Part shown: piece by piece, positions 3,432 to 16,454 of the stretch | Layout: every line of letters begins with the position of its first letter | Numbering within the stretch: position 1 is the stretch's first letter | Assembly: GCA_026984515.1 (NCBI GenBank) | Contig: JALSRZ010000095.1 | Location: forward strand, 1-55,252 | Length of the DNA stretch: 55,252 nt | Source of the DNA: Thiohalobacter sp. | GTDB lineage: Bacteria > Pseudomonadota > Gammaproteobacteria > DSM-19610 | Direction: 5' to 3' | Position numbers and translations under genes: made by a program | Notes under the pieces: model-generated | Databases searched by the model: none | Told to the model about the DNA's origin: nothing | What the model saw: only the letters and a program-made list of their open reading frames with translations

Positions 3432-4639
3432 CGGCGCGACCTCCGGCGTCGTTTCGCCGCCGTGGTACCGGAGGCCGGTACACTGTTGACCGTGCAGCGC
3501 GTTTCGTAATCGATGCGCAACAGCAATGCGATCGCCATGCAGGTCACCAGCATGCTGCTGCCGCCATAACTCATCAGCGGCAGCGTCAGTCCCTTGGTCG
3601 GCAGCAAACCGGTGTTGACACCAATATTAATCAGCGCCTGCAGGCCCAGCCAGGTACCTATACCGTAGGCCAGGTACGCTGCAAACCGGTTGCCGCCCTG
3701 CTCGGCCACGGCGGCAATGCTGTAGGCGCGGAGCACAATAAAGGCGTACAGGCCCAGCAACACCAGCACCCCGGCCAGGCCCAGTTCTTCCGCCAGCACG
3801 GCAAAGACAAAATCGGTATGTGCTTCCGGCAGGTAAAACAGTTTCTGGATGCTGGCACCCAGGCCAACGCCGAACCATTCACCGCGACCGATGGCAATCA
3901 GCGACTGGGTCAGCTGGAAGCCGCTGTTGAACGGATCGGCCCAGGGGTTGAGGAACGTGGTCAGGCGCTGCATGCGGTATGGCGAGGTCACCGCCAGCAA
4001 CACCAGGCTGCCGCCCGCCGTGGCAATCAGTGCCGCGTATTTCCACAGGCTGACACCGGCCATGAACATCATCACCAGCGCCGTCGCCATCAGTACTACC
4101 GTGGCACCGAAATCCGGCTCCAGCAGCAACAGCACCGCGGCCACGGTCAGCAGACCCAGCGGCCTGATAAAACCGGCTCCGGTCTGGCGCACGTCCTCAC
4201 CATGACGCACCAGGTAACCCGCCATGTACACCAGTGCCAGCAATTTGGCCGGCTCCGATACCTGCAGGCGGAAGACACCCAGGTTGATCCAGCGGGTACT
4301 GCCATTCACCTCACTGCCGACTCCCGGCAACAACACGACCGCCAGCAGGAATATGGCAATCAGGATACACAGCAGACTGCACTGCTCCCACCAGGCCAGC
4401 CGGATACGCAACACCAGCAGCCCCAGTCCCAGCCCCAGCAACAGGTAGATACTCTGGCGAAAAGCAAAATGGAACACGCTCAGCCCCAGGCGTTCCGCGG
4501 TCGGCATGGAAGCGGATGCAACCATGATCAGGCCCAGGGAAAACAGGGCCGTCACCGCCCCGAGCAAGGCAAAGTCCAGCCGCGGGCAACGTTCACCACG
4601 ACGCAGGGGCATATCCGGCAACAGGATCGCCAGGCTCAC
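3428..4639 (-). CDS. ftsW: Septal peptidoglycan polymerase FtsW
   Basis: SEDS-family integral membrane glycosyltransferase that polymerises lipid II at the septum together with FtsI. The 403-residue sequence has about ten hydrophobic segments, the QVSEPAKL motif, the AHTDFVFAVLAEELG region containing the conserved SEDS aspartate, and a C-terminal GLTLPLMSYGGSS signature. A basic tail ([10 protein letters not shown]) ends the protein. Translation appears to start at GTG, overlapping the murD TGA as GTGA. Position between murD and murG is the canonical dcw order. Confidence 0.96.
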   Translation of the reverse strand: MSLAILLPDMPLRRGERCPRLDFALLGAVTALFSLGLIMVASASMPTAERLGLSVFHFAFRQSIYLLLGLGLGLLVLRIRLAWWEQCSLLCILIAIFLLAVVLLPGVGSEVNGSTRWINLGVFRLQVSEPAKLLALVYMAGYLVRHGEDVRQTGAGFIRPLGLLTVAAVLLLLEPDFGATVVLMATALVMMFMAGVSLWKYAALIATAGGSLVLLAVTSPYRMQRLTTFLNPWADPFNSGFQLTQSLIAIGRGEWFGVGLGASIQKLFYLPEAHTDFVFAVLAEELGLAGVLVLLGLYAFIVLRAYSIAAVAEQGGNRFAAYLAYGIGTWLGLQALINIGVNTGLLPTKGLTLPLMSYGGSSMLVTCMAIALLLRIDYETRCTVNSVPASGTTAAKRRRRSRR

Positions 4640-6000
4640 CGGGTCAGCTCCTGCACGGCCTGCATGAACCGTTCGCCACGCTGCCGATAGTCACTGAACA
4701 TATCGAAACTGGCGCAGGCCGGGGACAACAGCACGGTATCCCCGGCAACGGCCAGCGCAGCAGCCTCGCGTACGGCGGTGAACATATCGGCGGCACGCCG
4801 CGTGGCTACCCTGCCCTGCAAAGCGGCTTCGATTTCATCGGCCGCTTCACCCATCAGTACGACAGCCTTGACCCGCGCATCCAGCCCGGCCGCCAGTTCG
4901 GAAAAATCGGCACCCTTTCCCTGGCCTCCGGCCAGTAACACCAGCGGCCCGTCGAAACCGCGCACCGCGGCCAGTGCGGCGCCGATATTGGTCGCCTTGG
5001 AATCGTTGTACCAGCGCACGCCATCGGCCTCGGCCACCCACTGGGTCCGGTGCGGCAAACCCTGGAACTCTCCCAGCACCTGTAACATCGCGGCACGTGG
5101 CAAATCCAGGACATCGCCCAGCGCCAGCGCAGCCAGCGCGTTGGCCAGGTTGTGCCGACCGGGCATGCGTACGGCAGAAGCAGGCAGCCAGGGTTCATTG
5201 CCCCTGGCAAGCCAGCAACCGTCCGCCTGATTCAGCAGACCGAAATCGCCGGCAGCCGGCACACCCAGACCGAACCCGACCGCTGGCGCACGCTCGGAAG
5301 CCAGCGCGAGGGCTACCGCATCATCCCGGTTGACAACCTGTAGCGCGGCGTCTGCAAATACCCGCTGCTTGGCGTGCGCGTACGCAACCATCGAATCGTA
5401 GCGATCCAGGTGGTCGGGACTGATGTTCAATACCGTCGCCGCCCGGCAGTGCAGACTGCGCACGGTTTCGAGCTGAAAGCTGGACAGCTCCAGCACATAC
5501 AGGTCGGGTTCCTGTTCGCCAATCAGGTCCAGCGCCGGGGTACCCAGGTTGCCGCCCACGCGCACATCGATACCGGCCTGTTGTGCCATGGCTCCCAACA
5601 GCGTGGTTACCGTACTCTTGCCATTGGAACCGGTGATGGCAATCACCGGTGCCTGTACGGTGCGCGCAAACAGCTCGATGTCGCCAATCACCTCCACACC
5701 GCGCTGTTGCGCAGCCACCAGCAGCGGTTGCCGGAGTGACACTCCGGGGCTTACCAGGATGCGTTCCGCGCGCGCGAAGACCTCCGCATCGAAACCACCG
5801 GTGAACAGGGCTACGTCCGGCAGTTCGCGTTGCATGTCCACCAGTGCCGGAGGCTGTTCCCGGCTGTCGACCACCGCGACTTCCACACCGCGCCGGCGCA
5901 GGAAACGCGCACAGGACAAGCCGGTTGCACCCAACCCGACAATCAGCGTGCGTGCTGTCTGCAGCGTATCCGGTTCCATGTAATTTGCAGCCGCCAGCAT
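4636..6000 (-). CDS. murD: UDP-MurNAc-L-alanine--D-glutamate ligase MurD
   Basis: Cytoplasmic Mur ligase adding D-glutamate to UDP-MurNAc-L-Ala with ATP. The 454-residue protein shows the N-terminal GLGATGLSCARFL nucleotide-binding motif, the ATP loop AITGSNGKSTVTTLLG, the YNDSKATN motif and a DMFSDYRQRGE-like C-terminal region. The start is ambiguous: the first ATG (6000) lies 2 nt after the stop of the 25-codon ORF upstream and could be translated by coupling. A second ATG seven codons in gives the more usual MurD N-terminus (MEPDTLQTARTLIVG). Neither has a strong independent ribosome binding site. Confidence 0.96.
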   Translation of the reverse strand: MLAAANYMEPDTLQTARTLIVGLGATGLSCARFLRRRGVEVAVVDSREQPPALVDMQRELPDVALFTGGFDAEVFARAERILVSPGVSLRQPLLVAAQQRGVEVIGDIELFARTVQAPVIAITGSNGKSTVTTLLGAMAQQAGIDVRVGGNLGTPALDLIGEQEPDLYVLELSSFQLETVRSLHCRAATVLNISPDHLDRYDSMVAYAHAKQRVFADAALQVVNRDDAVALALASERAPAVGFGLGVPAAGDFGLLNQADGCWLARGNEPWLPASAVRMPGRHNLANALAALALGDVLDLPRAAMLQVLGEFQGLPHRTQWVAEADGVRWYNDSKATNIGAALAAVRGFDGPLVLLAGGQGKGADFSELAAGLDARVKAVVLMGEAADEIEAALQGRVATRRAADMFTAVREAAALAVAGDTVLLSPACASFDMFSDYRQRGERFMQAVQELTR

Positions 6001-6002
6001 CT

Positions 6003-6080
6003 TTACATCAGCACCAGCAGCAGCACGGTAATGACCGCGAAGGTTGCTGCCACCACTGCTATTTGACCTTGTTCGTCCAT
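6003..6080 (-). CDS. Predicted 25-aa single-pass membrane microprotein in the dcw operon
   Basis: A 26-codon ORF (ATG to TAA) fills the only real gap between mraY and murD. The peptide starts MDEQGQ, with acidic and polar residues. It continues as an almost uninterrupted hydrophobic helix (Ile, Ala, Val, Leu, with Thr and Phe) to a C-terminal Met: about 19 residues, enough for one membrane pass. An AGAGGT Shine-Dalgarno sequence sits 4 nt before the ATG. The start is 12 nt after the mraY stop, and the TAA is 2 nt before the murD ATG, so it is spaced like a gene of the operon. I do not recognise a family. Function is unknown; a role alongside MraY or the divisome is only suggested by position. 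Confidence 0.6.
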   Translation of the reverse strand: MDEQGQIAVVAATFAVITVLLLVLM

Positions 6081-6092
6081 TGTTACCTCTGT

Positions 6093-7175
6093 CTAGCGAA
6101 TTTTCAGGGTTGCCAGCCCGAACAGCACCAGGATTACCGTGATAATCCAGAACCGCACGATGACACGCGGCTCCGGCCAGCCCTGCAGTTCGAAATGGTG
6201 ATGCAACGGCGCCATACGGAAGATGCGCCGCCCGGTCAGCTTGAACGATGCCACCTGCAGGATGACGGATACGGTTTCCATCACGAACACGCCGGCCATG
6301 AGAAAGAACACCAGTTCCTGGCGGACCAGGATGGCCACCGTGCCCAGCGCCGCACCGAGTGCCAGTGCGCCGACATCTCCCATGAACACCTGTGCCGGGT
6401 AGGCATTGAACCAGAGAAAACCGAGTCCGGCGCCGACGATGGCTCCACAGAAGACCGCCACTTCCCCCACCTCGCGGATAAACGGAATGTGCAGGTAGCT
6501 TGCAATCAGCACATGGCCGGTCGCGTAGGCGAAGATCGCCAGCGCACCGGCAATCAGCACGGTTGGCAGGATGGCCAGACCGTCGAGGCCGTCAGTAAGA
6601 TTGACCGCGTTACTGGAACCGACCACCACAAAGTAGACCAGCACCAGGTACCAGGCGCCCATGGGCAGGGCGACTTCCTTGAAAAAGGGCACGATCAGTT
6701 CGGTCTCGGCGGGTGACTGCGCCGCGTAGTACAGGTACAGGCCGGTGGCCAGCGCTACCAGTGACTGCCAGCTGTACTTGGCGGCGGCGGACAGCCCCTT
6801 GCTGTTGCCATACACCAGTTTCTTGTAATCATCGACCCAGCCGATGATGCCGAAAGCCAGGGTGACCAGCAGCACCACCCAGACATAGCGGTTGGCCAGG
6901 TCCGCCCACAGCAGGGTGGCGGACACAATCGCCACCAGGATCAGCGCGCCGCCCATGGTGGGCGTACCCGCCTTGGACAGGTGGGATTGCGGCCCGTCAT
7001 CGCGTACCTGCTGACCGATCTGGCGGAAACTCAGGTGGCGGATCATCCAGGGACCCACCACGAACGAAATCAGCAATGCCGTCAGTACGCCGAGGATGGC
7101 GCGCAGCGTCAGGTACTGGAATACGTTAAAGACGCTGTGATACTGACTAAGATAATCGGCAAGATAGACCAGCAT
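6093..7175 (-). CDS. mraY: Phospho-MurNAc-pentapeptide translocase MraY
   Basis: Integral membrane enzyme that transfers phospho-MurNAc-pentapeptide from UDP to undecaprenyl phosphate, making lipid I. It has 360 residues, the same as the E. coli enzyme. About ten hydrophobic helices are visible, together with the Mg-binding GWVDDYKK motif, the [13 protein letters not shown] motif and the C-terminal [11 protein letters not shown] histidine motif. The start codon shares one base with the murF stop (TGATG). It is followed by the small membrane ORF rather than directly by murD. Confidence 0.97.
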
Positions 7176-14807: not shown

Positions 14808-15506
14808 CTAAGCGCGGGAGCGGCGCCTGGACACCCCTGCCAGGGCGAGCAGACCGGAACCGAACAGCCACAGGGCGGCGGGCACCGGAACCGGGTTTAC
14901 GATCAGGCCAACGCCTCCCAGTTTTTTCTGGATAAAGGCTTCTTCACCACCATTCAGAGTGGTGGCGCTCAGGTTGTTCTGAAACGAGATCTGTAACGAG
15001 GTATCGGAACCCCAGCCGGCAGTATCCGCCAGGTTAACACTGGTTCCGCCGGACCAGGCCACGGTTGCGCCGCCCGTATCACCCAGCCCTGCGACATTGA
15101 AAATGCTTGCGTCGTTACATGCCAGGATTCCACAGGTAGTAGTGGTACTGGTAACTCCCAGGCGACCGGAAGCAGCGACGCTGGCATCAACACCCTTCCT
15201 TCTGTAATCCCCCTGTTCCTGCATGGCGAGGGAGGTGATGTCGTAACCCGGGGTAGTGGCCACCACGTCGATGATCAGCGTATCACTCGCGGTCACGGCA
15301 CCCGCGCCGTTCAGGGATTCCGCCTTGAAGGCTGGCGGCTGAAAAACAAGACTGTTACCTACCACGATGCCCGACCCGAACAGAGTAGCGTCATCGAAGG
15401 TAAAGGAAACATCCGTGCCAACCAGCGTAACGATGGTTGCCTGGCCGGATGTGGAAATGCCCAGCAGCAGGGCAGCCGCCGCGAGTTTCAGTCTGGATAC
15501 TTTCAT
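14808..15506 (-). CDS. PEP-CTERM-type secreted protein, paralogue A
   Basis: Predicted exported protein of 232 residues with a signal peptide (MKVSRLKLAAAALLLGISTSGQA), a beta-rich body of Thr/Ser/Gly-rich sequence, and a C-terminal sorting signal VPVPAALWLFGSGLLALAG followed by SRRRSRA. That tripartite tail (VPxP, hydrophobic helix, Arg cluster) is the gammaproteobacterial form of the PEP-CTERM signal, recognised by exosortase for surface attachment or release. The start at 15506 is preferred over 15515 because AAAGGA then sits 10 nt upstream. The ESLNGAG and EQGDY stretches are shared with the neighbouring gene. Biological role unknown; no exosortase is in the window. Confidence 0.75.
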   Translation of the reverse strand: MKVSRLKLAAAALLLGISTSGQATIVTLVGTDVSFTFDDATLFGSGIVVGNSLVFQPPAFKAESLNGAGAVTASDTLIIDVVATTPGYDITSLAMQEQGDYRRKGVDASVAASGRLGVTSTTTTCGILACNDASIFNVAGLGDTGGATVAWSGGTSVNLADTAGWGSDTSLQISFQNNLSATTLNGGEEAFIQKKLGGVGLIVNPVPVPAALWLFGSGLLALAGVSRRRSRA

Positions 15507-15562
15507 GCTGATCATCCTTTAAATTTGCTCCGTGCACCCTGGCCAACCGGGAGCCGCGTGAT

Positions 15563-16261
15563 TTACTTCCGGCGCCGGCAGCGACCGGCGAGCATAACAA
15601 AGCCACTGACAAACAGCCACAGGCTGGCGGGCAAGGGAACCGGTGTCGTGACCACAGTCATCAACCCGCTGCCGACCAGCTTGTTCTGTATACGGGCGCT
15701 TTCGCCGCTAGCGCCGGACGATGCCGTTAACAGGCTGTCCAGTGTCAGATCAATCGAGGTGACGCCGTTCCACATGGGAGTACCGAGATCTACCGAGGCA
15801 GTGCTCGACCAGGGTGTCAGGACGTTCTTCACGGTAAAATCATCACTACTGACCAGAGGGGTCGACACCGTGGTAGCCGGCACGCCGCTGTCGGTCACGT
15901 CAAAGTCCGCACTGGTGCTGACTGCCGTGCTGCCACTGCTCATCTGGTAGTCACCCTGCTGCTCGACCGCAACGGATTTGAACCGGTAACCGCTTTTTGC
16001 CACCACCGTTACCGTCCCCAGGGCAGAAAAGGAGCTGGGGCCGGCACCATTGAGCGACTCCGCGAAAAAATCCGTCGGCTGGGCAATGATGGAATCGCCC
16101 ACTGCGGTCAGCGTGCCATAGGCCGCCATGCCAGGCTGCGCACTGTCATAGTAAAAATCAACCGTTGCGCCCGGGAGGTGAACCAGCACGGCGTGAGCCG
16201 GCAGTGCGCACAACAACAGGGTGGTCGCGAGGGCTCGCCCGACCAGCGTGGAAAACGACAA
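15563..16261 (-). CDS. PEP-CTERM-type secreted protein, paralogue B
   Basis: Paralogue of the gene downstream, also 232 residues from the chosen start. A signal peptide ends at LPAHA, the body shares AESLNGAG and EQQGDY with paralogue A, and the C-terminus is VPLPASLWLFVSGFVMLAG followed by RCRRRK, a degenerate form of the PEP-CTERM signal (GSGLL replaced by VSGFV). No ATG is suitable: a TTG at 16261 lies 5 nt after a strong AAGGAGG and is the likely start. The two genes are 56 bp apart on the same strand and probably arose by tandem duplication. Function unknown. Confidence 0.72.
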   Translation of the reverse strand: MSFSTLVGRALATTLLLCALPAHAVLVHLPGATVDFYYDSAQPGMAAYGTLTAVGDSIIAQPTDFFAESLNGAGPSSFSALGTVTVVAKSGYRFKSVAVEQQGDYQMSSGSTAVSTSADFDVTDSGVPATTVSTPLVSSDDFTVKNVLTPWSSTASVDLGTPMWNGVTSIDLTLDSLLTASSGASGESARIQNKLVGSGLMTVVTTPVPLPASLWLFVSGFVMLAGRCRRRK

Positions 16262-16454
16262 ACTATCCTCCTTGTAATACAACCTGTACCGCTTTCTTTA
16301 TGTTTTTCGCCTGGTGTATATAAGCAACAATCCAGCCAATAGTATTTACTCTTAAAAAACAACAGGCTGCAAATCAGCCCCGGTCGCAGCGTAAAGCATA
16401 CCGACAGCAGCAAAAATCGGACGGCATGCACGACCCCGGTTATTTTCTCTATTT

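Follow-up and report, generated by a model that had tools for sequence, protein, structure and literature searches.

The mraY-murD junction

The window, by which we mean the whole 55,252-nt stretch of Thiohalobacter sp. DNA analyzed here, contains a dcw cluster in which mraY (phospho-MurNAc-pentapeptide translocase, 360 aa; positions 6093..7175, reverse strand) lies directly upstream, and murD (454 aa; 4636..6000, reverse strand) directly downstream, of a short ORF on the same strand. The mraY product was named from its own sequence and aligns with the mraY of the relatives. Between ftsI and murB, the neighboring genes overlap by 1 to 4 nt at ftsI-murE, murE-murF, murF-mraY, murD-ftsW, ftsW-murG, murG-murC, and murC-murB, and the mraY-murD junction is the sole gap, at 92 nt. 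The microprotein CDS in this gap (6003..6080, reverse strand) runs from an ATG at 6080-6078 to a TAA stop and encodes the 25-residue product MDEQGQIAVVAATFAVITVLLLVLM. It begins 12 nt after the mraY stop, is preceded by the Shine-Dalgarno (SD) sequence AGAGGT (6085..6090, reverse strand), and ends 2 nt before the first murD ATG (6000). A preliminary description of the locus had given the same coordinates, start, stop, product, SD sequence, and spacings, together with the pattern of short overlaps broken by a single 92-nt gap, and all of these agree with the sequence and with the coordinates of the neighboring genes. The window's genome has one copy of the microprotein gene, and we saw no sign that it is mobile.

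Two further features of the window deserve mention. A second in-frame murD ATG lies at 5979, 21 nt from the first (5979-6000, reverse strand); such paired ATGs are seen in most of the window's relatives within its family, and murD may start at either one. Farther along, two adjacent genes (14808-15515 and 15563-16282, reverse strand) encode similar secreted proteins with the C-terminal tail PVPxPAxLWLFxSGxxxLAGxxRRR, which looks like a putative PEP-CTERM (exosortase) sorting signal.

Distribution among relatives

A DNA search of relatives, many of them draft or metagenome assemblies, yielded mraY-murD junctions from 20 genomes of the window's family (f1, Thiogranum-like Gammaproteobacteria) and 10 of other families. 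The former comprise the window's own genome, 16 others of its genus, and 3 from two other genera. The ORF is present at the same site in all 20, always starting with ATG, 24 to 27 codons long, and 7 to 17 nt behind mraY; it is absent from all 10 junctions of the other families. When 369 genomes of the class were searched with a profile, only one family besides the window's own, f122, had convincing matches; 10 of its 11 genomes carry the ORF (L121 does not), also between mraY and murD. The f122 products include MDLRIQMKIVGLTFLLMSLLWLVL and similar sequences as well as two diverged ones, MDLRWQFGVVAILFLGMGLVFWVM and MDFRWQFGVVAILFLGMGLVFWVI. Across both families the order mraY-ORF-murD is kept, and the ORF lies 7 to 27 nt behind mraY. 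When the profile was extended to both families and run against the class again, only f1 and f122 reached E values of 2e-10 or better; the next matches, at about 1e-3, were partial and inside larger ORFs and were disregarded. Across 389 genomes of the phylum, the window alone matched at E 0.001.

In a further sample of the class, comprising 84 genomes outside f1 and f122 counted by hand from their loci after removal of duplicate loci, none has a hydrophobic ATG-started ORF of 14 to 80 aa in the mraY-murD gap; one (L091) has a hydrophobic TTG-started ORF there that overlaps the murD start. In a tree of MraY and MurD, the carriers and five non-carriers (L085, L095, L099, L106, and L121) form one clade with a support of 0.989, within which the order is weakly resolved. 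The simplest reading of this clade would therefore be one gain of the microprotein followed by a few losses. Three of the non-carriers (L095, L099, and L106, family f153) have long mraY-murD gaps of 97 to 217 nt, that of L106 being about 120 nt longer than those of the other two. No microprotein remnant is recognizable in these gaps, which are possible sites of loss.

Sequence conservation and selection

The products, 24 to 27 aa in length, have the consensus MDEKSQIAxVGVTFAVIAVLLVxL. In the 20 genomes of the window's family, Met1, Gln6, Thr13, Ile17, and Leu21 are invariant, and Gln6 is shared without exception by the 30 carriers. The most diverged homologues, at L118:2234-2308 (reverse strand) and L120:1178-1252 (forward strand), read MD[LF]RWQFGVVAILFLGMGLVFWV[MI]; they have lost Thr13 and kept Gln6, Val10, and Phe14, and this retention marks the latter three as putative core positions.

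The preliminary description had proposed an unannotated single-pass membrane microprotein and had named internal stops, frameshifts, or a lack of third-position bias in relatives as observations that would speak against it. Internal stops and frameshifts are absent from every copy. By parsimony, codon positions 1, 2, and 3 have undergone 48, 14, and 109 changes in the window's family (chi-square p 2e-18, in a test that treats changes as independent) and 27, 15, and 47 in f122 (p 1.5e-4), a third-position bias in both. The pooled pairwise pN/pS is 0.24, with pS, at 0.69, near saturation. In 3000 neutral simulations along the MraY and MurD tree at the observed third-position divergence, a mean of 0.88 of 20 copies retained the start without a stop, with a maximum of 10; these runs allowed substitutions only, and indels would worsen survival. 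Conservation of the SD sequence, also put forward as a check, extends to all 30 carriers: every start is preceded by one, with a mean anti-SD pairing energy of -8.9 kcal/mol compared with -3.0 kcal/mol at random places in mraY, only 0.7% of which reach the carriers' median pairing with the 16S tail. The proposal of a membrane microprotein is thus strongly supported by retention in 30 of 31 genomes of the two families, purifying selection, and a hydrophobic helix, and we regard it as nearly certain from these sequence comparisons that the ORF is a genuine protein-coding gene.

Helix shape and known families

Residues 7-25 (6006..6062, reverse strand) form a predicted transmembrane helix with a best 19-residue mean hydropathy of 2.9 (Kyte-Doolittle); in the two f122 members for which it was computed, this value is 1.9 to 2.2. 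Pro is absent from all 30 sequences. The few charged residues precede the helix or lie at its beginning. The N-terminus had been described as acidic, which is true of the window's family and does not extend to f122, where mostly Arg or Lys is found nearby. By the positive-inside rule, these Arg and Lys residues suggest that the N-terminus would lie inside, in the cytoplasm. Conservation along residues 6-22 has an α-helix-like periodicity peaking at 100 degrees per residue, with permutation P values of 0.0009 for all 27 distinct sequences, 0.0076 for f1, and 0.09 for f122 alone. Gln6, Val10, Thr13, Phe14, Ile17, and Leu21 lie in an arc of about 100 degrees and so share one helix face, suggesting that this conserved face may pack against a membrane protein partner.

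No match to the microprotein fell below E 0.001 in Pfam (best 0.02), NCBIfam (0.0025), or PHROGs (0.02). The NCBIfam value comes from the MgtR model (NF033229), which the window's protein does not match and which 1 of 24 members reaches at E 0.0025. The PDB contains no fitting family, its match to the ErbB-4 transmembrane segment having an E value of 0.53; we rejected this match and those in Pfam (DUF7396, NS4a, and others) as chance resemblance between hydrophobic helices. Rfam has no match for the mraY-murD gap, and the open-licence papers searched contain no relevant account of a small protein encoded near mraY, murD, or the other dcw genes. The earlier statement that no described family covers the ORF consequently holds across all of these sources. 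A short ORF under purifying selection that encodes one hydrophobic helix belongs to the functional class of small single-pass membrane proteins, and on these sequence features we take the microprotein to be a new family within this known kind.

Discussion

We propose that the mraY-murD microprotein is a single-pass inner-membrane protein of 24 to 27 aa that would be expressed with the other genes of the dcw operon from a ribosome-binding site of its own, with its short polar N-terminus probably in the cytoplasm, and that its conserved face (Gln6, Val10, Thr13, Phe14, Ile17, and Leu21) would pack on an integral membrane protein of the same operon. MraY is the first candidate, because the ORF lies directly behind mraY and has a face suited to packing. 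The preliminary description had considered a modulator of MraY or of divisome assembly conceivable, a role that the place in the operon and the conservation of a single helix face would suit. As the most likely partner, MraY would have its stability, dimer state, or activity tuned by the peptide, which would adjust the output of lipid I. We infer translation in the cell, topology, partner, and effect from the sequences, and the partner and function from position and helix shape only; for the whole explanation, a genuine gene whose product is a single-pass accessory subunit or regulator with MraY as its partner, we estimate a probability of roughly 40%. Its position directly downstream of mraY in 20 of 20 f1 and 10 of 11 f122 genomes argues for this partnership, as do precedents for membrane-based control of MraY, including control through a transmembrane helix. 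The five members of the clade that have MraY and not the microprotein indicate that MraY as such does not require it. Residues of MraY or MurD that might separate carriers from non-carriers of the same clade gave no convincing candidate, and none tracks the losses. An AlphaFold model, run with 9 sequences, of MraY continued across its TAG stop (taken as Gln) into the peptide had a mean pLDDT of 39, too low to interpret. Read-through of the mraY stop as a natural route to the peptide was rejected, since the gap varies from 7 to 27 nt and the frame is not kept.

One precedent is protein E of phage phiX174, whose transmembrane helix binds the MraY groove at helix 9 and whose transmembrane domain, within a 37-aa peptide, inhibits the enzyme (PMC11812184). 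A cavity between the subunits of the MraY dimer also mediates feedback control of the enzyme (PMC10914600). Protein E controls MraY within the membrane by a single transmembrane helix, and the microprotein likewise has a single predicted one, its binding to MraY being putative. However, protein E is a phage-encoded inhibitor of 91 aa with a Pro in its helix, and it recruits SlyD, whereas the microprotein is encoded on the chromosome, has a helix free of Pro, and is retained beside the mraY of its own host. We speculate, a little more tentatively than for the partnership itself, that a chromosomal transmembrane peptide might bind MraY and set the rate of lipid I synthesis in the manner of protein E, here for the benefit of the cell. 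Among small single-pass regulators of bacteria, MgrB, MgtR, KdpF, CydX, YohP, and DinQ are similarly under 50 aa with one hydrophobic helix and a short polar end, and several of them work through the packing of this helix on a larger membrane protein. The microprotein differs from them in having no sequence family match and, in the case of MgtR, in its genomic setting, between mraY and murD instead of in the mgtCBR operon. None of the six is known to lie in the dcw cluster. FtsL, FtsB, and other small dcw or divisome proteins are also single-pass inner-membrane proteins, acting in cell division and wall synthesis; FtsL and FtsB, though, are about 100 aa with a periplasmic coiled coil, whereas almost none of the microprotein would extend beyond the membrane.

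The same conservation and helix-face evidence would also be explained by a real single-pass microprotein with a different membrane partner in the operon or divisome (FtsW, FtsI, FtsL, or MurJ) or with a membrane protease, for example FtsH, as its partner. A site of action other than the neighboring gene's product is common among known microproteins, ftsW is only one gene further down, and on operon membership alone FtsW, MurG, and divisome proteins would be equally possible partners. Against this, the conserved mraY-ORF-murD order, with the ORF 7 to 27 nt behind mraY, favors co-translation with MraY, and we consider a partner other than MraY somewhat unlikely. Less probable again is that the ORF mainly serves translation, coupling mraY to murD or tethering the polysome to the membrane, with the peptide as a by-product. 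That it fills the only large gap of a tightly overlapping operon, and that murD in the window starts 2 nt past its stop, would suit such a role; however, anywhere from 2 to 55 nt separates the ORF stop from the first murD ATG, other families manage without such an ORF, and the amino acids are conserved beyond what openness of the frame would require, with one Gln never replaced and conservation concentrated on one side of the helix. The size and hydrophobicity of the microprotein resemble those of DinQ or YohP (PMC3567139, PMC7549839) and might point to the insertion into the operon of a DinQ/Hok-like peptide, a small toxin or stress peptide active on membranes. We think this very improbable: the gene has a good SD sequence and shares its operon with essential genes, Rfam found no known antisense RNA family, and the sequence shows steady purifying selection at one fixed location instead of patchy exchange. 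An RNA element such as an attenuator or small RNA, for which a short conserved stretch between genes might speak, was rejected as scarcely credible, given that third codon positions vary freely, the junction folds no better than shuffled sequence (z-score -0.15), the consensus structure of 13 relatives comprises just 6 pairs at -1.7 kcal/mol, and nothing in Rfam matches. The caveat of the preliminary description that an ORF of only 25 codons might be hydrophobic by chance, the least probable reading of all, is refuted by its retention in 30 of 31 genomes despite near-saturated synonymous divergence, by the neutral simulation, and by the absence of a hydrophobic ATG-started counterpart from all 84 sampled genomes of other families.

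The dcw cluster is among the best-studied bacterial operons, and the open-licence papers searched describe no protein gene between mraY and murD. The conserved membrane protein encoded there, below the size that ordinary annotation picks up, shows that even an essential operon may contain an overlooked gene. If control of MraY by the microprotein is true, it would be a natural case of regulating an antibiotic target through a transmembrane helix, and the peptide would serve these bacteria as a built-in subunit, or a governor, of a target that is essential.
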